Shown: positions 796-9,434 of the stretch, piece after piece
Position numbering within the stretch: the stretch's first letter is position 1
Layout: every line of letters begins with the position of its first letter
From: Mumia xiangluensis
GTDB taxonomy: Bacteria; Actinomycetota; Actinomycetes; Propionibacteriales; Nocardioidaceae
Direction of reading: 5' to 3'
Length of the DNA: 64,000 nt
NCBI RefSeq assembly: GCF_010994095.1
Contig: NZ_WJYO01000007.1
Span: forward strand, 248,001-312,000
Position numbers and translations under genes: made by a program
Notes under the pieces: generated by a model
Database searches by the model: none
Told to the model about the DNA's origin: nothing
Seen by the model: the letters and a program-made list of their open reading frames with translations, nothing else

Positions 796-1446
796 TCAGC
801 GCCCGGGCGCCGCCAACCACGCGACGACGACGTCGCCGATCATCGCGCGCAGCCTCGGCCGCGTGCCGTCGGCGAGCAGGTCGACGTCGAACAGGTAGCC
901 GAACGTGTACTGGTTGGCGACCTGGAACACGCAGTACGAGCTGATCAGCAGGTGCACGTCGAGGGCGTCGACGTCCGCGCGGAACACCCCGTCGGCGATC
1001 CCCCGGTCGAGGATCGACTCGAGGACCTCCATCGCCGGCTTGCCGAGGTCGCGGAGCACCTCCAGCTTGCGTACGCCCTCGCCACGGTGGATGTTCTCGA
1101 TGGCGACCAGACGCATGAAGGCCTGGTGCTCGACGTGATGGTCGTAGGTCAGCTCGGCCAACCGCCGGACGGCGTCCACGGGACCGAGGTCGCCGACCTC
1201 GAGCCGCTCCTCGGCCTCGCGGATCCCTCGGTACGCGTGCTCGAGGACCGCGAGGTAGAGCTGCTCCTTGCCGCCGAAGTAGTAGTAGATCATCCGCTTC
1301 GTCGTCCGGGTGCGCTCCGCGATCTCGTCGACGCGGGCACCGGAGTAGCCGTCCTCGGCGAACGCCTGCGTGGCCACCTCGAGGATCTCGGCCTTCGTGC
1401 GCTCGGCGTCGCGCCGTTTGAGGACCTGGTCAGCCACGGGCACCAC
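796..1446 (-). CDS. TetR/AcrR family transcriptional regulator, divergent from quiC
   Basis: A 216-residue TetR-type repressor. The N-terminal helix-turn-helix (about residues 15-62) includes KAEILEVATQAFAEDGYSGARVDEIAERT and TKRMIYYYFGGKEQLY, the classic TetR_N pattern. The C-terminal half is helical, with the TetR_C-type stretch GVFRADVDALDVHLLISSYC. It is transcribed away from quiC with about 75 bp between starts, so control of quiC and of itself is the obvious inference. The start is GTG 1446; GTG codons at 1443 and 1437 are alternatives. Ligand unknown; an aromatic or cyclitol acid would fit the neighbours. Confidence 0.9.
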   Translation of the reverse strand: MVPVADQVLKRRDAERTKAEILEVATQAFAEDGYSGARVDEIAERTRTTKRMIYYYFGGKEQLYLAVLEHAYRGIREAEERLEVGDLGPVDAVRRLAELTYDHHVEHQAFMRLVAIENIHRGEGVRKLEVLRDLGKPAMEVLESILDRGIADGVFRADVDALDVHLLISSYCVFQVANQYTFGYLFDVDLLADGTRPRLRAMIGDVVVAWLAAPGR

Positions 1447-1495
1447 CCTATCGAGCAGAGGCCGTTCTCTCGGGCGTTCGACCCCTGGCGAGTCA

Positions 1496-1514
1496 ATGTA
1501 CTAAATGGTACGTT
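1496..1514 (+). promoter_or_regulatory. quiC promoter with overlapping inverted repeat
   Basis: ATGTAC (1496-1501) and GTACGT (1508-1513) form an inverted repeat with one mismatch and a 6-bp spacer. It overlaps the hexamer TACGTT (1509-1514), which lies exactly 6 nt upstream of the quiC GTG. This fits a leaderless promoter covered by a TetR-type operator. Confidence 0.5.
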
Positions 1515-1520
1515 CACGGC

Positions 1521-3299
1521 GTGCGTACGTCGATCGCCACCGTCTGCATCAGCGGAAGCCTCGTCCCCAAGCTCCACGCCTGCGCCGAAGCCGGCTTCGA
1601 CGGCGTCGAGATCTTCGAGCCCGACCTCGTGACCGCGTACGAGTCGCCTGAGGAGATCCGCACGCTCGCGGCACGCCTCGGGCTCACGCTCGACCTCTAC
1701 CAGCCGTTCCGCGACTTCGAGGGCGTGGACGACGACCTCTTCGCCGACAACATGCGCCGCGCAGAGACCAAGTTCCAGCTGATGCAACGCCTCGGCATGG
1801 ACCTGGTGCTCGTGTGCAGCAACGTCGCGACCGCCACGATCGACTCCGACGACGTGTCCGCACGCCAGCTCCGCGCGCTCGGCGAGCTCGCCTCGTCGTA
1901 CGGGGTGCGCATCGCGTTCGAGGCGCTCGCCTGGGGGAAGTACGTCGACGACTACCGGCGGGCGTGGCGGATCGTCGAGCGAGCCGACCACCCGAACGTC
2001 GGCGTCTGCCTCGACTCGTTCCACATCCTGTCGCGCGGCCACGACCCCAGCGACATCGAGAAGATCCCGGGCGACAAGATCTTCTTCCTCCAGCTCGCCG
2101 ACGCGCCCGCCCTCACCATGGACGTCCTCTCGTGGAGCCGTCACCACCGGCTGTTCCCCGGGGAGGGCAGCTTCGACCTGACGGCGTTCCTCGGTCACGT
2201 GCTCGCTGCCGGATACACGGGCCCGCTGTCGCTCGAGGTGTTCAACGACGTCTTCCGCCAGACCGACGTACGCCGTACGGCCGCGCACGCCCACCGCTCG
2301 CTGGTGTGGCTCGCCGACCAGGTCCGCCGGCCCGGCGTCTCCGACGCGACGCACCACCTGACCGAGATCACTCCCCCGCAGGCGTTCGACTTCGTCGAGC
2401 TGCGCGGATCAGCCCTCGACGAGATCGACCTCGTGCTGGAGCAGCTCGGGTTCACGTTCCGCGGGCGGCACCGGACGAAGCCGGTGCGACTCTGGTCCTC
2501 CGGGCGTGCGCGGGTGATCCTCAACGAGCAGCGCGGCAACGACCGGCCGACCCACCTGGCTGCGTTCGGGCTCGAGGTCGCCGACGCCGACGCCGCGCTC
2601 GCCCGCGCCCGCGAGCTCGCCGCTCCCCCGGTGTTCCGGCAGACGCACGCCGGCGAGCAGGACCTGCCGGCGACCGCCGCGCCCGACGGCATGCAGATCC
2701 TCTTCAACGACAACGGACCGGATCCGCGGTGGCTCGACGAGTTCACCTACGGCGACCCCGGACGGGCCGACGTCGCCCGATCGATCGACCACGTGAACAT
2801 CACTCAGCGATGGCAGGACTTCGACGAGGCGGTGCTGTTCTACCAGAGCGTCCTCGGCCTGGAGTCCGAGCCGCCGCGCGAGGTGGCGAGCCCGCGCGGC
2901 CTGGTCCGCAGCCAGGTGATGCGCACCCCGGACGGGTGCGTGCGCCTCCCGCTCAACGTCGAGCCGCAGGCCGAGGAAGGGCGCACGCAGCACGTCGCGT
3001 TCACGTCGGACGACGTCGTCGGACTCGCGCGCACGGCACGGGAGCGCGGGCTGTCCTTCCTCCCGGTGCCGGACAACTACTACGACGACCTGCGCGCTCG
3101 CTTCGCGCTCGACGAGGCGTTCGTCGCGGAGCTGCGCTCGCTCGACCTGCTGTACGACCAGGACGCCGACGGCGGGTTCGTGCACTTCTACACACGCACT
3201 CTGGGCGACGTCTTCTTCGAGTTCGTCGAGCGACGCGAGGCGTACGACGGGTACGGCGCCGCCGCCGACGCTCCCGTGCGCCTCGCGGCACAACGCTGA
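1521..3299 (+). CDS. quiC: 3-Dehydroshikimate dehydratase, QuiC type (TIM barrel fused to HPPD-like domain)
   Basis: A 592-residue cytosolic enzyme converting 3-dehydroshikimate to protocatechuate. Residues about 1-270 are a xylose-isomerase-like/AP-endonuclease-2 barrel with metal-site segments FEALAWGKY, GVCLDSFHI, FLQLADAP and LEVFND. Residues about 285-580 are a vicinal-oxygen-chelate region resembling 4-hydroxyphenylpyruvate dioxygenase; H424, H491 and E567 occupy the positions expected of the 2-His-1-Glu iron ligands. Length and fusion match Pseudomonas-type QuiC. GTG start with no Shine-Dalgarno and TACGTT 6 nt upstream suggests a leaderless message. The genes that follow (transporter and a shikimate dehydrogenase) support the pathway. 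The role of the second domain is unknown. Confidence 0.88.
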   Translation: MRTSIATVCISGSLVPKLHACAEAGFDGVEIFEPDLVTAYESPEEIRTLAARLGLTLDLYQPFRDFEGVDDDLFADNMRRAETKFQLMQRLGMDLVLVCSNVATATIDSDDVSARQLRALGELASSYGVRIAFEALAWGKYVDDYRRAWRIVERADHPNVGVCLDSFHILSRGHDPSDIEKIPGDKIFFLQLADAPALTMDVLSWSRHHRLFPGEGSFDLTAFLGHVLAAGYTGPLSLEVFNDVFRQTDVRRTAAHAHRSLVWLADQVRRPGVSDATHHLTEITPPQAFDFVELRGSALDEIDLVLEQLGFTFRGRHRTKPVRLWSSGRARVILNEQRGNDRPTHLAAFGLEVADADAALARARELAAPPVFRQTHAGEQDLPATAAPDGMQILFNDNGPDPRWLDEFTYGDPGRADVARSIDHVNITQRWQDFDEAVLFYQSVLGLESEPPREVASPRGLVRSQVMRTPDGCVRLPLNVEPQAEEGRTQHVAFTSDDVVGLARTARERGLSFLPVPDNYYDDLRARFALDEAFVAELRSLDLLYDQDADGGFVHFYTRTLGDVFFEFVERREAYDGYGAAADAPVRLAAQR

Positions 3300-3325
3300 G
3301 CCGTCCCGCGAGCAGCGTCAACCGG

Positions 3326-4321
3326 TCAGGCGCTCGGTGCCGCTCCGGTCGATCCCCGCAGCACCAGCTCGGTGGGCAGCAGGACGCGCGGCGGCGTACG
3401 GGTCTTGCCGTTCGGCGTCGCCATGTCGAGCAGTATCTCCACCGCGGCACGGCCGACCTCGACGTGCGCCCCTCCGAGGGTCGTCAGGCTCGGCGTGCAC
3501 AGGTCCGAGGCGAAGATGTTGTCGAAGCCGAGCACGCTCACGTCCTCCGGGACCCGCACACCGCGCTGCGCGAGGCGTTGCACCACGCCGATGGCCAGCA
3601 GGTCGTTGTGCGCGACGATCGCGGTCGCGTTCGTGGTGAGAGCACCGTCGGCTGCCGCGCCGCCCTGCGACACCTTCGGGGTGAACGGGCCGACACGCTC
3701 CATCCGGATCCCGTGGCCCTCGGCCGCCGTCCGCAGCGCCGACCACCGCGTCGCCGCCATCCACGAGTTGCGCGGTCCCGCGAGGTAGACGAGGTGCCGG
3801 TGCCCGAGCGACACCAGGTGCTCGACGATCTGGCGGCAGCCCTGGACGTGGTCCAGCACGACGCTCGGGATCCCAGGGAGCTCCCGGTTCATCAGCACGA
3901 CGGGCCGCTGGGACGCGATCTGCTCGAGGTTCTCGTCGGGGAGACGGCTCGCGGCAAGGACGAAGCCGTCGACCGAGCTGACCAGGCGCTGGATCTGGTC
4001 GTACTCGATCCGCGGCGACTCCTCCGCGTTGACCAGCACGAGCGTGTACTCGGACGCCTTCGCCCGCAGCTCCGCTCCGCGGATGAGCTCGAAGTAGTGC
4101 GGGTTGGTGATGTCGGAGACCACCATGGCGACCGTGTGGTGACGCCCCGAGAACAGGGCTCGCGCGTGCGGGTTCGGGCGGTAGCCGAGTTCGGCCGCGG
4201 CGGCCAGGACGCGCTCTCGCGTATGGGCGCTGACACGCGTCGGCGTCGAGAACGCACGTGAGACCGTCGACGTCGCGACACCGGCGGCAGCGGCGACGTC
4301 GTAGATCGTCGGGTGGGCCAT
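3326..4321 (-). CDS. LacI family transcriptional regulator
   Basis: A 331-residue repressor. Residues 1-50 are the LacI helix-turn-helix (TIYDVAAAAGVATSTVSRAF, then RERVLAAAAELGYRPNPHARAL with the hinge helix). The remainder is a periplasmic-binding-protein-like sensor with VAMVVSDITNPHYFELIRG and the PEDVSVLGFDNIFASDLCTPSLTT block near the C-terminus. The ATG at 4321 was chosen because the fold begins there; the open frame runs 67 codons further upstream without homologous features. It is divergent from dctQ across the concentric dyads at 4342-4379, so it very likely controls the transporter operon. It is convergent with quiC (26 bp between stops). Confidence 0.92.
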   Translation of the reverse strand: MAHPTIYDVAAAAGVATSTVSRAFSTPTRVSAHTRERVLAAAAELGYRPNPHARALFSGRHHTVAMVVSDITNPHYFELIRGAELRAKASEYTLVLVNAEESPRIEYDQIQRLVSSVDGFVLAASRLPDENLEQIASQRPVVLMNRELPGIPSVVLDHVQGCRQIVEHLVSLGHRHLVYLAGPRNSWMAATRWSALRTAAEGHGIRMERVGPFTPKVSQGGAAADGALTTNATAIVAHNDLLAIGVVQRLAQRGVRVPEDVSVLGFDNIFASDLCTPSLTTLGGAHVEVGRAAVEILLDMATPNGKTRTPPRVLLPTELVLRGSTGAAPSA

Positions 4322-4341
4322 GTCACATAGGGAACACGATC

Positions 4342-4379
4342 TGGCAACCAGATGGCAACCGCTTGCCGTCAGGTTGCCA
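4342..4379. promoter_or_regulatory. LacI-type operator: two concentric dyads
   Basis: The inner dyad GGCAACCGCTTGCC (4354-4367) has the central CG of LacI-family sites. The outer perfect arms TGGCAACC (4342-4349) and GGTTGCCA (4372-4379) share exactly the same centre (4360.5). TGGCAACC is also directly repeated 11 bp apart (4342 and 4353). The block lies immediately upstream of TAGGTT (4387-4392), the likely dctQ -10. Confidence 0.78.
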
Positions 4380-4400
4380 CCCTCTCTAGGTTCGCCTGCT

Positions 4401-4979
4401 ATGACCCACGCCACACCCACGCCGCGTGGCCCCGCGCGACTCCAGGAGCTGTTCACGCAGCCCCCGCGGTGGCTCTCGCGGACGACCCGCACGCTCACCG
4501 CGATCGAGCTCGCGATCGGCATCGCCGCGCTCCTCCTGATCTTCTTCCTGGTGCTCGCGCAGGCGCTCCAGCGCTACCTGCCGTTCGAGGGCTGGCCGTG
4601 GACCGGCGAGCTCGCCCGCTTCTGCCTGGTGTGGCTGACCTTCGTCGTCGCGGGCGTGCTGGTGACCACCGACTCGCACATCGCGATCGAGATGATCGAC
4701 ACGGTCGACAACGACCTCGTACGCAGGTTCGTGCGCGTGCTGTCCTGCGTGATCGTCGCCGCGATCGGCGTCGTGCTCACTCTCGCGTCGTGGTCCCTCG
4801 TGCAGGAGCAGGGGATCGTCAAGTCACCGGCGATGCAGATGCCGATGTCGTGGTTCTACGCGATCTCGATGATCGGCTTCGTGAGCACCGCGCTGCGCGC
4901 CACGATCGCCGCCGTGCAGTACGCCGTCCTCGGCGTCCCGCGCGACGACTACGCCGATGCGGAGGCTCCGGTCGCATGA
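4401..4979 (+). CDS. dctQ: TRAP transporter small permease (DctQ family)
   Basis: A 192-residue membrane protein with four predicted helices (about residues 35-58, 72-92, 112-134 and 150-175). It carries the DctQ signature around WTGELARFCLVWLTFVVAG and the charged loop DSHIAIEMID. It forms the membrane complex with DctM and works with the binding protein DctP to import organic acids using the ion gradient. The ATG at 4401 follows TAGGTT by 8 nt, suggesting a near-leaderless transcript. The stop overlaps the dctM start by 4 nt. Confidence 0.92.
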   Translation: MTHATPTPRGPARLQELFTQPPRWLSRTTRTLTAIELAIGIAALLLIFFLVLAQALQRYLPFEGWPWTGELARFCLVWLTFVVAGVLVTTDSHIAIEMIDTVDNDLVRRFVRVLSCVIVAAIGVVLTLASWSLVQEQGIVKSPAMQMPMSWFYAISMIGFVSTALRATIAAVQYAVLGVPRDDYADAEAPVA

Positions 4980-6250
4980 GCCTCCTCGTCCTCTGCCTCC
5001 TGATCACGCTCCTGCTGGTGATCCGCGTCCCGATCGCGTTCGCGTTCATCGGGCCGTCGCTCCTCTATCTCCTCACCAACGACCAGTCGCTCGGACTCGC
5101 GCTGCGCCTCGTGGCGCAGTCGACGGCGAGCTTCCCGCTGCTCGCGGTCCCACTGTTCATCCTGCTCGGGTGCCTCGCGAACCACGCAGGCATCGCCGAC
5201 CGCCTCTTCGACTTCGCGCTCGCCCTCCTCGGCCGCGTCCGCGGCAGCCTCGGCTACGTCAGCGTCGGCGTCAGCGTCGGCTTCTCCTGGATGAGCGGCT
5301 CCGCGGTCGCCGACGCCGCCGCGCTCGGCAAGCTCCAGATCCCCGCGATGCTGCGCAGCGGCTACTCGAAGAAGTTCGCACTCGGCGTCACCGGCGCCGC
5401 CTCGCTCATCGCGCCGGTGATGCCGCCGAGCATCCCCGCGGTGATCTACGCGGGCCTTGCCGCCGTCTCGACGGGCGCGCTGTTCGCGGCGTCGGTCGTT
5501 CCCGCGCTGCTGATGGCACTCGGGCTCTGCATCGTCGTGTTCTTCTGGGTACGGCGTGACCCGAACATCCAGCGCACGGAGTTCAGCTGGCCGCGCGTCT
5601 GGGAGACCGGCAAGCGCGTGATCGCCCCGCTCGGCGCTCCCGTCGTGATCCTGGGCGGCATCCTCGGCGGCTTCTTCACCCCGACGGAGGCTGCCGCGGT
5701 CGGCGCGGCGTACATGCTGATCCTCGGCTTCGTGTACCGCACGCTCCGGCTGCGCGACATGCCGAAGGTTCTCACCGAGGCCGTCCTCACGACCGGTGCG
5801 ATCATGCTCATCGTCGCCTCGGCCAACCTCCTCGGCTACATCTTCGCCCGCGAGCAGGTGCCCCAGCACATCTCGACGTGGGTGCTCGACTTCACCGACG
5901 ACGCGACCGTGTTCCTGCTGCTGGTGCTGCTGCTGTCGCTCGTTCTGGGGACCGCGCTCGACGCGATCGCGGTGCTGACGCTGACCGTCCCGATCCTGCT
6001 GCCGATCAGCGCGGCGTACGGCGTCGACCCGATCGCGCTCGGCGTCCTCATGATCCTGTCGCAGATGATCGGCCTGCTCACCCCGCCCGTCGGCACCGTG
6101 ACCTTCGTCCTGCAGGCGATCGCGAAGGCACGGATGGCCGAGGTGTTCTGGGGGTCGCTGCCGTTCATGATCCCGCTGCTCGCACTGTGCTTCGCGATCA
6201 TCTTCTGGCCCGACGCGATCCTGTACCTCCCGAAGGAGCTCGGGCTGTGA
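4976..6250 (+). CDS. dctM: TRAP transporter large permease (DctM family)
   Basis: A 424-residue polytopic protein, the usual DctM length, with about 12 hydrophobic segments. Family motifs include FPLLAVPLFILLGCLANHAG, GFSWMSGSAVADAAALGK, IAPVMPPSIPAVIYA, GFFTPTEAAAVGAAY and LTPPVGTVTFV. This is the ion-coupled translocation subunit. It overlaps dctQ by ATGA and is followed by a 4-nt overlap with the dehydrogenase gene, so translation is coupled through the operon. Confidence 0.95.
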   Translation: MSLLVLCLLITLLLVIRVPIAFAFIGPSLLYLLTNDQSLGLALRLVAQSTASFPLLAVPLFILLGCLANHAGIADRLFDFALALLGRVRGSLGYVSVGVSVGFSWMSGSAVADAAALGKLQIPAMLRSGYSKKFALGVTGAASLIAPVMPPSIPAVIYAGLAAVSTGALFAASVVPALLMALGLCIVVFFWVRRDPNIQRTEFSWPRVWETGKRVIAPLGAPVVILGGILGGFFTPTEAAAVGAAYMLILGFVYRTLRLRDMPKVLTEAVLTTGAIMLIVASANLLGYIFAREQVPQHISTWVLDFTDDATVFLLLVLLLSLVLGTALDAIAVLTLTVPILLPISAAYGVDPIALGVLMILSQMIGLLTPPVGTVTFVLQAIAKARMAEVFWGSLPFMIPLLALCFAIIFWPDAILYLPKELGL

Positions 6251-7200
6251 GCGCGCCACGCGGCACCGACCGCTCGGTCCTGGTCGGGCTGCTCGGGCAC
6301 GGGGTCAAGCCGTCGCTCACCCCCGAGATGCACGAGCGCGAGGCTCAGCGCCACGGGCTGCGCTACGTCTACAAGACGGTCGACCTCGAGGGCGACAGGC
6401 TCAGCGTCGACCACCTCCGCGGCCTGCTCGCCGCCGCGGTCGAGCTCGGGTTCGACGGCCTCAACATCACCCATCCGATCAAGCGGACGATGCTGCCGCT
6501 CGTCGACGAGCGGTCCGCCGAGGTCGAGCGCATCGGGGCGCTCAACACCGTCCTCGTCCGCGACGGCGTGACACGGGCCTACAACACCGACGTGACCGGG
6601 TTCGCGCGCGCCTTCCGCGAGGGTCTTCCCGGCGCGGACCTCGGTGCCGTCGTCCTCCTCGGCGCGGGCGGCGCCGGCACCGCGGTGGCCGACGCCCTCG
6701 TGGACCTCGGCGCCGGTCGCCTGCACCTCGTCGACCCCGACCGGGCCCGCGCCGAAGCACTCCGCGACACCCTCGCGCGTACGGCTCCCGAGGTCGAGGT
6801 CGCCGTCGACGGCCCCGAGGCGCTCGCCGACGCCCTCACCGACGCGAGCGGCCTCGTCAACGCCACCCCGGTCGGGATGGCGCACCACCCCGGGACGCCC
6901 GTGCCCGACGACCTGCTGACACCTCAGCGCTGGGTAGCCGACATCGTCTACCGACCCCTGGTCACCGAGCTGCTCCGTACCGCGCGAGCACACGGTTGCC
7001 CGACCCTCAGCGGTGCCGGGATGGCGGTCCACCAGGCCGCCGACACCTTCGAGCTCCTCACAGGGAGGACTGCTCACCGCGAGGAGATGTTCCGCGACTT
7101 CGACGAGCTGGTCTCGGCCGAGACCGACTCGTCCACCGACGCGGACGTCGCTTCCACCACCCATCGGTCTCGGGAGTCCTCCGGAGAAAGGAACCACTGA
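6247..7200 (+). CDS. Shikimate/quinate dehydrogenase-like protein (AroE family)
   Basis: A 317-residue NAD(P)-dependent dehydrogenase. The N-terminal substrate domain has SLTPEMHE, NITHPIK (catalytic Lys) and YNTDVTGF (catalytic Asp). The Rossmann domain starts VVLLGAGGAGTAVADAL, and SGAGMAVHQAADTFELLTG closes the fold. About 45 residues rich in Ser, Thr, Asp and Glu extend past that. Position between TRAP subunit genes and near quiC suggests catabolic oxidation of shikimate or quinate rather than biosynthesis; this is inference. The GTG start overlaps the dctM stop. No 3-dehydroquinate dehydratase is in the window, so shikimate is the simpler substrate. Confidence 0.86.
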   Translation: MSAPRGTDRSVLVGLLGHGVKPSLTPEMHEREAQRHGLRYVYKTVDLEGDRLSVDHLRGLLAAAVELGFDGLNITHPIKRTMLPLVDERSAEVERIGALNTVLVRDGVTRAYNTDVTGFARAFREGLPGADLGAVVLLGAGGAGTAVADALVDLGAGRLHLVDPDRARAEALRDTLARTAPEVEVAVDGPEALADALTDASGLVNATPVGMAHHPGTPVPDDLLTPQRWVADIVYRPLVTELLRTARAHGCPTLSGAGMAVHQAADTFELLTGRTAHREEMFRDFDELVSAETDSSTDADVASTTHRSRESSGERNH

Positions 7201-7201
7201 A

Positions 7202-8227
7202 ATGTCTGCTCGAAAGCTCCTACGCACCGTGTCGATCGCCGCCTGCGCAGTCGTCCCGATGCTCGCCCTCACGGCGTGCGGCGGCGACGACGAAGGAGGA
7301 GGCGGTGGCGACTCCACCGAGCGTGAGCTGACGCTCGCGCACAGCTACACCGAGAACCAGCCGCAGCACCGGTGCGGCGCCCAGGTGATCGCCGACGAGG
7401 TCGCGAACGCCGACGTCGGCCTCACGGTCACGGTCCATGCCAACAGCACGCTCGGAGGCGATGCCGACCGCATCAGCTCGGTCGTCTCCGGCGACATCGA
7501 CATGGACATCCAGGGCGCCTCCGCCCTCGGTGCCGTGTACGAGCCGGTGGCCGTGCTCGACGCGGCGTACGCGTTCGACGACGCCGACCACCTGGCCCGC
7601 TTCTTCGACGACGACGCGTCTGACGAGGTCCTCGACGGCTTCAAGGAGGCGACCGGCGTCGGGACGCTCGGCGCGTGGTCCGCCGGCATGCGGCAGTTCA
7701 CCGCCAACGAGCCGATCCGCAACCCGGACGACCTCGACGGGCTGCGCATGCGCTTCCCCGCGTCGCCGCAGTTCCTGATGAACGCCAAGGCGCTCGGCGC
7801 CAACGCCACCGAGGTCGCGTACGAGGAGCTGTTCCTCGCGCTGCAGCAGGGCACGGTCGACGGACAGGAGAACCCGATCGTCAACATCGAGGCGATCAGC
7901 CTCGACGAGGTCCAGGACTACATCAGCATGTCGTCGCACCAGGCCAACTCCAACCTCGTCATCATCGGAAAGGTCTGGGACGAGCTGTCCGACGAGCAGC
8001 AGGACGCACTCCAGGCGGCCGTCGACAAGGCCGTCGAGCAGGTGCCGGGCTGTGTCGAGGAGGACGAGCAGAAGACGCTCGACGCCTGGGCCGAGAGCGG
8101 ATCGCTGGAGGTCGTCGACGACGTGGACGTCGACGCGTTCCGGACGCAGGCCGACACGTACCTGCGGGAGAACTTCAACGACGAGCAGCTGGCCGTGTAC
8201 GAGGCGATCCGAGGCACGGCTGGATGA
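7202..8227 (+). CDS. dctP: TRAP transporter substrate-binding lipoprotein (DctP family)
   Basis: A 341-residue secreted receptor. The signal peptide ends with the lipobox LTAC (Cys about residue 24), so it is probably lipid-anchored outside the membrane. DctP features include LTLAHSYTENQPQH, the binding-site Arg segment DDLDGLRMRFPASPQF, and FLALQQGTVDGQENPIVNI. A good Shine-Dalgarno (GGAGAAAGG) lies about 8 nt before ATG 7202. The next gene starts within its stop codon. Bound ligand unknown; operon context suggests a shikimate- or quinate-like acid. Confidence 0.93.
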   Translation: MSARKLLRTVSIAACAVVPMLALTACGGDDEGGGGGDSTERELTLAHSYTENQPQHRCGAQVIADEVANADVGLTVTVHANSTLGGDADRISSVVSGDIDMDIQGASALGAVYEPVAVLDAAYAFDDADHLARFFDDDASDEVLDGFKEATGVGTLGAWSAGMRQFTANEPIRNPDDLDGLRMRFPASPQFLMNAKALGANATEVAYEELFLALQQGTVDGQENPIVNIEAISLDEVQDYISMSSHQANSNLVIIGKVWDELSDEQQDALQAAVDKAVEQVPGCVEEDEQKTLDAWAESGSLEVVDDVDVDAFRTQADTYLRENFNDEQLAVYEAIRGTAG

Positions 8228-9204
8228 CGGCGGTGGTGGGGGAGGTCCAGACGTTCAGGGGCCCCGTCGAGGCGTCCGACCTCGGCGTCACGCTCATCCA
8301 CGAGCACGTGTTCGTGGGGCACCCGGAGCTCGACCTGAACTTCCCCCACCCCGAGTGGGACGAGGCCGCAGCGGTCGAGTCGGCCGTTGCCGGCCTCGAC
8401 CGCCTGTTCGACCTCGGCGTACGCACAGTGGTGGACCTCACCGTGCTCGGCCTCGGTCGCGACGTGGCGCGGGTGTCGCAGGTCGCGGCTCGGTCACGGG
8501 TCCAGCTGGTCGCGTCGACCGGCTACTACACGGCGGACGTGCTGCCGCCGTACTTCCACACCCACGGCCCCGGCCTCCTGATCGACCGGCCCGACCCGCT
8601 GGTGGAGATATTCGTCGCCGACATCGAGGACGGCATCGCGGGCACCGGCGTGCGCGCGGGGATGCTCAAGGTCGTGACCGACCGCGCAGGGTTCACACCT
8701 GACGTGACACGGGTGATGACGGCGGCTGCGGTCGCGCACCAGCAGACCGGCGTCCCGATCACGACCCACACGCACGCGCCGTCGCAGAGCGGGCGCGACC
8801 AGCTCGCGTTCCTCGGTCGTCACGGGGTCGAGCCCGATCGCATCATCGTCGGGCACTGCGGCGACTCGGAGGACCTGTCGTACCTCCGCGAGCTCGCCGA
8901 CGCCGGCGCGACGCTGGGCATGGACCGCTTCGGGATGGAGCACGTGCTCGACGACGAGAGCCGCGTACGCACGGTGCTGGCGCTGCTGGACCTCGGGTAC
9001 GCCGACCGGATGGTGCTGTCGCACGACGCCGCGTTCTTCAGCCGTGTCACGCCGCCGAGCTGGCGTGCCGTGCACGTCCCGAACTGGCACATGGAGAACC
9101 TGCATCGCCGGATCGTGCCGATGCTGCGCGAAGGGGGTGCCGCCGAGGACGACCTGCACCAGATGCTTGTCGTGAACCCGGCACGGCTGCTGGCCCCGCA
9201 CTGA
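8224..9204 (+). CDS. Phosphotriesterase-family metal-dependent hydrolase (lactonase-like)
   Basis: A 326-residue amidohydrolase-fold enzyme. The complete binuclear metal set is visible: H26-x-H28 (IHEHVF), K149 (candidate carbamylated Lys in MLKVVTD), H182/H184 (TTHTHA), H211 (VGHCGD) and D268 (SHDAAF). Most relatives outside true phosphotriesterases hydrolyse lactones. Overlap with dctP (ATGA) makes it the last gene of the transporter operon, so its substrate is probably the imported compound or an ester or lactone of it, such as a quinic acid lactone (hypothesis). A repeat array and terminator follow. Confidence 0.85.
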   Translation: MTAVVGEVQTFRGPVEASDLGVTLIHEHVFVGHPELDLNFPHPEWDEAAAVESAVAGLDRLFDLGVRTVVDLTVLGLGRDVARVSQVAARSRVQLVASTGYYTADVLPPYFHTHGPGLLIDRPDPLVEIFVADIEDGIAGTGVRAGMLKVVTDRAGFTPDVTRVMTAAAVAHQQTGVPITTHTHAPSQSGRDQLAFLGRHGVEPDRIIVGHCGDSEDLSYLRELADAGATLGMDRFGMEHVLDDESRVRTVLALLDLGYADRMVLSHDAAFFSRVTPPSWRAVHVPNWHMENLHRRIVPMLREGGAAEDDLHQMLVVNPARLLAPH

Positions 9205-9209
9205 CCGCC

Positions 9210-9323
9210 CGCGAGTCACCCTTCCCGCCCCGCGAGTCACGCTCTCCGCACCGCGAGTCACGCTCTCCGCACCGCGAGTCACCCTTCCCGCAACGCGAGT
9301 CACCAGCCCGCACCGCGAGTCAC
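9210..9323. repeat. Phased array of CGCGAGTCAC, 21-bp period
   Basis: The 10-bp core CGCGAGTCAC starts at 9210, 9231, 9252, 9273, 9294 and 9314: five copies at exactly 21 bp and a last step of 20. The linkers vary (CTTCCCGC or CTCTCCGCA types). It sits between the hydrolase stop and the terminator, so it would be transcribed in the 3' UTR. The two-helical-turn spacing of a short conserved core could mark a protein-binding array. Confidence 0.85.
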
Positions 9324-9337
9324 CCAGCGCTGGTTAC

Positions 9338-9375
9338 GACCACCGAGCGACGCCTGCATCCGTCGCTCGGTGGTC
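9338..9375. terminator. Strong hairpin terminator after the TRAP operon
   Basis: Perfect 15-bp stem GACCACCGAGCGACG (9338-9352) / CGTCGCTCGGTGGTC (9361-9375) with an 8-nt loop. There is no U-tract, as is usual for actinobacterial terminators. Confidence 0.85.
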
Positions 9376-9434
9376 GGAATCGGCGCCGGGCGAGACGGTC
9401 ACGCGGTGCGACGATCCGTGGACCGCCGCATCAG

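Follow-up and report, generated by a model that had tools for sequence, protein, structure and literature searches.

The window, that is, the whole stretch of DNA analysed here (64,000 nucleotides; positions 248,001 to 312,000 of contig NZ_WJYO01000007.1), belongs to the 4.62 Mb genome of Mumia xiangluensis (Nocardioidaceae), whose nearest relatives are Mumia quercus and Mumia sp. zg.B17. A unit spanning positions 796–9204 combines a tripartite ATP-independent periplasmic (TRAP) transporter with predicted enzymes of quinate/shikimate catabolism and a phosphotriesterase-family metallohydrolase (PTE). Every gene named in the initial annotation (quiC, lacI, dctQ, dctM, the aroE-like gene, dctP and a PTE homologue with a complete active site) is present and intact, with its family assigned by profile. 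The tetR gene facing quiC, absent from that annotation, is part of the same unit. The features are as follows (window coordinates).

796–1446, minus strand: tetR, TetR-family regulator, divergent from quiC; homologues adjoin quiC or PTE in many related cassettes
1495–1514: putative TetR operator, AATGTACTAAATGGTACGTT; similar palindromes lie in the tetR-quiC intergenic regions of relatives
1521–3299, plus strand: quiC, predicted fused 3-dehydroshikimate dehydratase (AP_endonuc_2 TIM barrel and HPPD-like domain), with full-length alignment to 5hmq
3326–4321, minus strand: lacI, LacI-family regulator, transcribed away from the TRAP operon; start set from sequence
4353–4368: LacI-type operator, TGGCAACCGCTTGCCG (consensus TGGCAAN4TTGCCA), with a weaker overlapping site at 4342–4357
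4401–4979, plus strand: dctQ, TRAP small permease (PF04290)
4976–6250, plus strand: dctM, TRAP large permease (TIGR00786, above cut-off)
6247–7200, plus strand: aroE-like gene, predicted quinate/shikimate dehydrogenase; closest solved relative is that of Corynebacterium glutamicum
7202–8227, plus strand: dctP, lipoprotein TRAP solute receptor (TIGR00787, above cut-off; lipobox LTAC read from sequence)
8224–9204, plus strand: PTE, phosphotriesterase-family metallohydrolase (PF02126), with a complete metal site and clade-specific loops 7 and 8

All three subunits of the DctPQM transporter are coded within one operon. The tight packing of the five transporter and enzyme genes, already remarked on in the initial annotation, consists of three 4-bp overlaps (dctQ/dctM, dctM/aroE and dctP/PTE) and a 1-nt spacing between aroE and dctP, and because of it dctQ-dctM-aroE-dctP-PTE is probably one translationally coupled operon. 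Two conserved operator-like sites appear to mark two control units, lacI-dctQ and tetR-quiC. In 33 of 38 loci, near-duplicates among them, the motif TGGCAAN4TTGCCA (at most one mismatch) is found between lacI and its neighbour, most often the leading gene of the transporter, and only one site was found elsewhere in 748 kb; in the Mumia genome TGGCAAN4TTGCC has a single occurrence (4353–4367). The palindrome AATGTAC-N6-GTAC(A/G)TT, whose Mumia copy occupies 1495–1514, recurs between tetR and quiC. LacI would control the transport/hydrolase/dehydrogenase operon, and TetR would control quiC. Related clusters of Nocardioidaceae (L122, L123, L129) share LacI (51–54%), the same TGGCAAN4TTGCCA operator, AroE and QuiC with the Mumia cassette, but have a major facilitator superfamily (MFS) carrier in place of the TRAP transporter and are without PTE. 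Since these MFS-type clusters have the same LacI site, a predicted LacI effector common to both cluster types is supported.

The AroE-like protein reaches 362 bits with the NCBIfam 'shikimate dehydrogenase' model NF009201 (cut-off 235) and matches over its full length the quinate/shikimate dehydrogenase of the C. glutamicum type (E about 4e-73 to 3jyo/2nlo), and is a predicted quinate/shikimate dehydrogenase. QuiC shows both of its domains over the full length of the protein; its score of 534 bits lies below the very strict NCBI QuiC equivalog cut-off of 1200, so that it is domain architecture and context, and not the NCBI equivalog model, that make it a putative QuiC homologue. The quinate-catabolic gene set (dehydrogenase, dehydroquinate dehydratase, dehydroshikimate dehydratase and protocatechuate cleavage) is complete in the Mumia genome, where a single general aroQ (C1:1135945) is the only dehydroquinate dehydratase gene. 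The pcaHGBL genes lie away from the cassette, near C1:725294, and pobA- and pcaF-like genes were recognised by eye with them. A second, separate AroE-family gene is of biosynthetic type.

About a third of the related cassettes have their own AroQ (3-dehydroquinate dehydratase) added, which adjoins the cassette in Jiangella, Modestobacter and several Nocardioidaceae; in Cellulomonas and Agromyces pcaHGB-IJ is contiguous with it. Because the shikimate route needs no dehydroquinate dehydratase, the adjacent AroQ in many relatives favours a quinate-type cassette. In two genomes (G073, G082) a TRAP-PTE-AroE-AroQ cassette coexists with an MFS-AroE-TetR-QuiC cluster that has no AroQ, which suggests that quinate and shikimate are split between the two. 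Taken with QuiC and the dehydrogenase, the AroQ and pca neighbours in relatives support the earlier proposal of a TRAP-fed quinate/shikimate catabolic cassette.

The PTE matches PF02126 at 273 bits. Its metal ligands (H26, H28, K149, H182, H211 and D268) and the Tyr/Arg pair that is the hallmark of phosphotriesterase-like lactonases (PLLs), here Y102 and R235, are invariant in a 23-sequence alignment. The nearest folds to the model (predicted local distance difference test score, pLDDT, 94.5) are those of PPH from M. tuberculosis (Z 49.7 to 4if2) and of the lactonases SsoPox and VmoLac (Z about 46). As no signal peptide is seen in its sequence, the enzyme should be cytoplasmic. Sixteen positions are fixed in the cassette clade and rare in PPH-like cousins, and nine of them fall in loops 7 and 8, which make up 11% of the protein (hypergeometric p 5e-6 for the enrichment). 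H240, D244, S273, T276 and R281 are polar in the cassette PTE, whereas the same sites are mostly hydrophobic in the cousins, which often have Lys at the site of R281; polar residues in these loops would fit a hydroxylated or charged substrate. In respect to the PLLs and PPH, the cassette enzyme thus has the fold, the binuclear metal site and the Tyr/Arg pair in common, and differs in its clade-specific, more polar loops 7/8 and in its catabolic context. PPH-like paralogues (42–51% identity) are common. The second PTE of the Mumia genome (G000:C3:58662-59606, L001) is PPH-like and 44% identical to the cassette PTE; it follows a TetR gene and an AMP-ligase-like gene, with no TRAP genes in the short stretch examined. 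A role of the cassette PTE as a replacement for PcaD was dropped, pcaL being present in the Mumia genome.

A PTE scan of 84,980 species genomes gave 31 loci (53–86% identity) in Nocardioides, Aeromicrobium, Jiangella, Modestobacter, Blastococcus, Pseudonocardia, Cellulomonas, Agromyces, Microbacterium, Nesterenkonia and others. Within the flanks examined, every one of the 31 loci has DctP beside PTE, 28 have AroE there, and QuiC and LacI adjoin at 24 loci each. The arrangement is not due to chance, since it is found again in six other families (Jiangellaceae, Geodermatophilaceae, Pseudonocardiaceae, Cellulomonadaceae, Microbacteriaceae and Micrococcaceae), and the cassette is widespread in Actinomycetota. 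Loci found by a PTE search are biased for PTE-DctP linkage, and samples chosen by DctP give a less biased test. In these, PTE is adjacent to close DctP orthologues in 11/11 cases (at least 62% identity; 150 family genomes) and in 9/9 cases (at least 59% identity; 395 class genomes), the two samples having several genomes in common. All 36 PTE-bearing rows of the DctP tree fall in one clade (support 100/99, 100% of bootstrap trees).

Outside this clade the picture is different. The sister TRAP cassette of family f88 (L139-L142, L147-L150) has DctM, DctP, QuiC and AroE in 8/8 genomes, with DctQ and LacI also present in 7/8 within the stretch examined and the same LacI operator in 6/8, but is without PTE in all eight; its DctP is 50–55% identical to that of the PTE clade and differs at putative pocket positions. 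PTE is also absent from all 13 MFS-type clusters, in which the MFS carrier is accompanied by QuiC and by either AroE or a Zn-alcohol dehydrogenase. The initial annotation had made conservation of the hydrolase with the cassette one test of its proposal, and this held for one DctP clade and failed for the sister TRAP cassette and the MFS clusters. The idea that PTE is required in all TRAP-type quinate cassettes was accordingly dropped. As both kinds of cluster do without it, quinate/shikimate catabolism in itself does not require PTE, which lies outside the core pathway and goes with one receptor lineage.

Within that lineage PTE is retained with a second AroE lineage, usually plus AroQ (L092, L094, L095, L096), and with CaiB and a Zn-alcohol dehydrogenase in two metagenome-assembled genomes labelled Chloroflexi and Acidimicrobiia (L052, L053). 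Since it stays when the dehydrogenase is swapped, PTE follows the solute receptor and not the pathway enzymes, and so its substrate is most likely whatever the receptor brings in. In an MFS-QuiC cluster (L121:7582-8553), too, AroE is replaced by a Zn-alcohol dehydrogenase, which shares 41% identity with the enzyme next to PTE in L053.

Some related TRAP modules carry an acetolactate-synthase-like thiamine diphosphate (ThDP) enzyme (L134/L093 in G064, L133 in G057, L143 in G580, L098 in G491, and L057), together with at least two of citryl-CoA lyase, CaiB CoA-transferase, acylating aldehyde dehydrogenase, pyrroloquinoline quinone-dependent dehydrogenase and a ThuA-domain protein. Among them PTE is found only in L057 and in L134/L093, in the latter about 8 kb from dctP. 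In L057 (724–6585) AroE, a TIM-barrel protein, the ThDP enzyme, citryl-CoA lyase and acylating aldehyde dehydrogenase follow in a row, which by analogy resembles inositol-type ring opening and may serve to degrade a quinate-like acid without passing through protocatechuate.

TRAP ligands normally bear a carboxylate. DctP keeps R164 and R184, which are also present in its closest solved relative (4pc9), and differs from the PTE-less sister clade at, e.g., positions 47, 53, 55, 106, 107, 160, 161, 190, 191, 228, 249 and 251; some of these would lie in the pocket, to judge from knowledge of SiaP-type receptors and not from a complex. The DctP model has a pLDDT of 72, and the fold search gave many tied TRAP receptors and did not predict a ligand.

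The reading that we favour, with a probability of roughly 0.45, is TRAP import of a quinate or shikimate ester followed by hydrolysis inside the cell by PTE, which feeds quinate/shikimate catabolism. DctPQM would import a carboxylate-bearing ligand, which in this DctP lineage most likely includes ester-bound quinate or shikimate, a chlorogenate-type acylquinate being the leading candidate; plants naturally contain much of their quinate as such esters. The cytoplasmic PTE would cleave the imported ester and release the acid, which the AroE-like dehydrogenase would oxidise. 3-Dehydroquinate, if formed, would be dehydrated by AroQ (in Mumia the single general one), and QuiC would convert 3-dehydroshikimate to protocatechuate, to be degraded by the pcaHGBL route. 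A more specific form, an 'import first, hydrolyse inside' acylquinate/acylshikimate route in which PTE is a hydrolase dedicated to quinate esters and inherited along with the receptor that imports them, is put forward tentatively and seems somewhat less probable. Several points weigh against ester import. Hydroxycinnamate-type genes, which might be expected for an acylquinate import route, are not recurrent beside the cassettes in the loci examined; the relatives of PTE among the PLLs and PPH are best known as lactonases, not as alkyl esterases; the sister f88 TRAP cassette manages without PTE; and the comparison of DctP pockets is one of sequences.

Two other explanations appear unlikely, to a similar degree. 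PTE may be a lactonase that opens quinide, the example given in the initial annotation, or a lactone of a pathway intermediate, diffused in or formed inside, so that the lactone is not lost. The nearest solved structures and the invariant Y102 and R235 described above speak for it, and a useful but dispensable hydrolase would be accounted for. A neutral lactone, however, has no carboxylate for the invariant arginines of DctP, yet PTE tracks the DctP clade exactly; quinide is scarce at neutral pH; and the MFS-type quinate clusters would need PTE too, yet are without it. Chlorogenate-type acylquinates have a carboxylate and quinide has none, because of which ester cleavage is preferred over lactone opening, with modest confidence. 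The other, equally doubtful explanation is that only free quinate or shikimate is imported and PTE has a side job, on a dead-end or damaged metabolite or on another ligand of a promiscuous DctP. It agrees with the absence of PTE from the sister TRAP cassette and MFS clusters, where the core route manages without it, and with the occurrence of the PTE group together with citryl-CoA lyase, CaiB and the ThDP enzyme beside related TRAP genes (L057, L093/L134), but the co-inheritance with one DctP clade and the 4-bp overlap with dctP fit a shared ligand better than general repair. That PTE is an ordinary PPH-like enzyme sitting in the operon by chance is very improbable, since, common as such paralogues are (one lies at C3:58689 of the Mumia genome), TRAP genes were not found near the PPH-like cousins in five loci examined, the cassette PTE is fixed, clade-specific and distinct in its substrate loops, and the neighbourhood data already disfavour it.

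Two further known systems are close to the cassette. The qsu cluster of C. glutamicum, for quinate/shikimate utilisation, shares the 3jyo-type dehydrogenase, a dehydroshikimate dehydratase and the route to protocatechuate, but has an MFS-type carrier and other regulation, whereas the Mumia cassette imports by TRAP, has LacI and TetR as its predicted regulators and includes a metallohydrolase besides. In the hca/qui supraoperonic cluster of Acinetobacter an esterase is likewise linked to quinate catabolism genes; this chlorogenate esterase, HcaG, is an unrelated alpha/beta hydrolase, not of the PTE family, and the cluster has no TRAP transporter. A literature search, with most subscription journals outside its coverage and therefore weak as evidence, found no paper combining phosphotriesterase, shikimate dehydrogenase and TRAP transporter, and within the same incomplete coverage TRAP transporter, quinate and catabolism came together only in a general genome survey. 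As far as checked, the cassette is a variant of a known catabolic cassette, with a hydrolase step undescribed for the quinate/shikimate pathway. To our knowledge, little has been described of the uptake of chlorogenate-type esters by soil actinobacteria, and most physiological roles of the phosphotriesterase family are unknown. The pairing of a TRAP receptor with the metallohydrolase, if true, would give a natural substrate for one branch of this family, and the natural contrast between DctP clades that have PTE and those that do not makes the question directly testable.

Searches of plasmids did not find the PTE-AroE-TRAP cassette. A match on a plasmid of Rhodococcus USK10 (53%) has no TRAP, AroE or QuiC match within its 19 kb, and the neighbours of one on a Roseomonas plasmid are a tripartite tricarboxylate receptor, CaiB and a thiolase. 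A TRAP system of Corynebacterium deserti was rejected as a cassette relative, its context being unrelated and sugar-acid-like.

Directly 3' of the PTE stop codon, at 9204–9325 of the window, there are six imperfect 21-bp direct repeats (CCGCGAGTCACCCTTCCCGCA), followed at 9320–9393 by a terminator-like inverted repeat (arms 33 nt, loop 8 nt). At about 640–790, open reading frames read as repeated DQREGS-like peptides, which suggests that tetR, too, is closely followed by a short tandem repeat.

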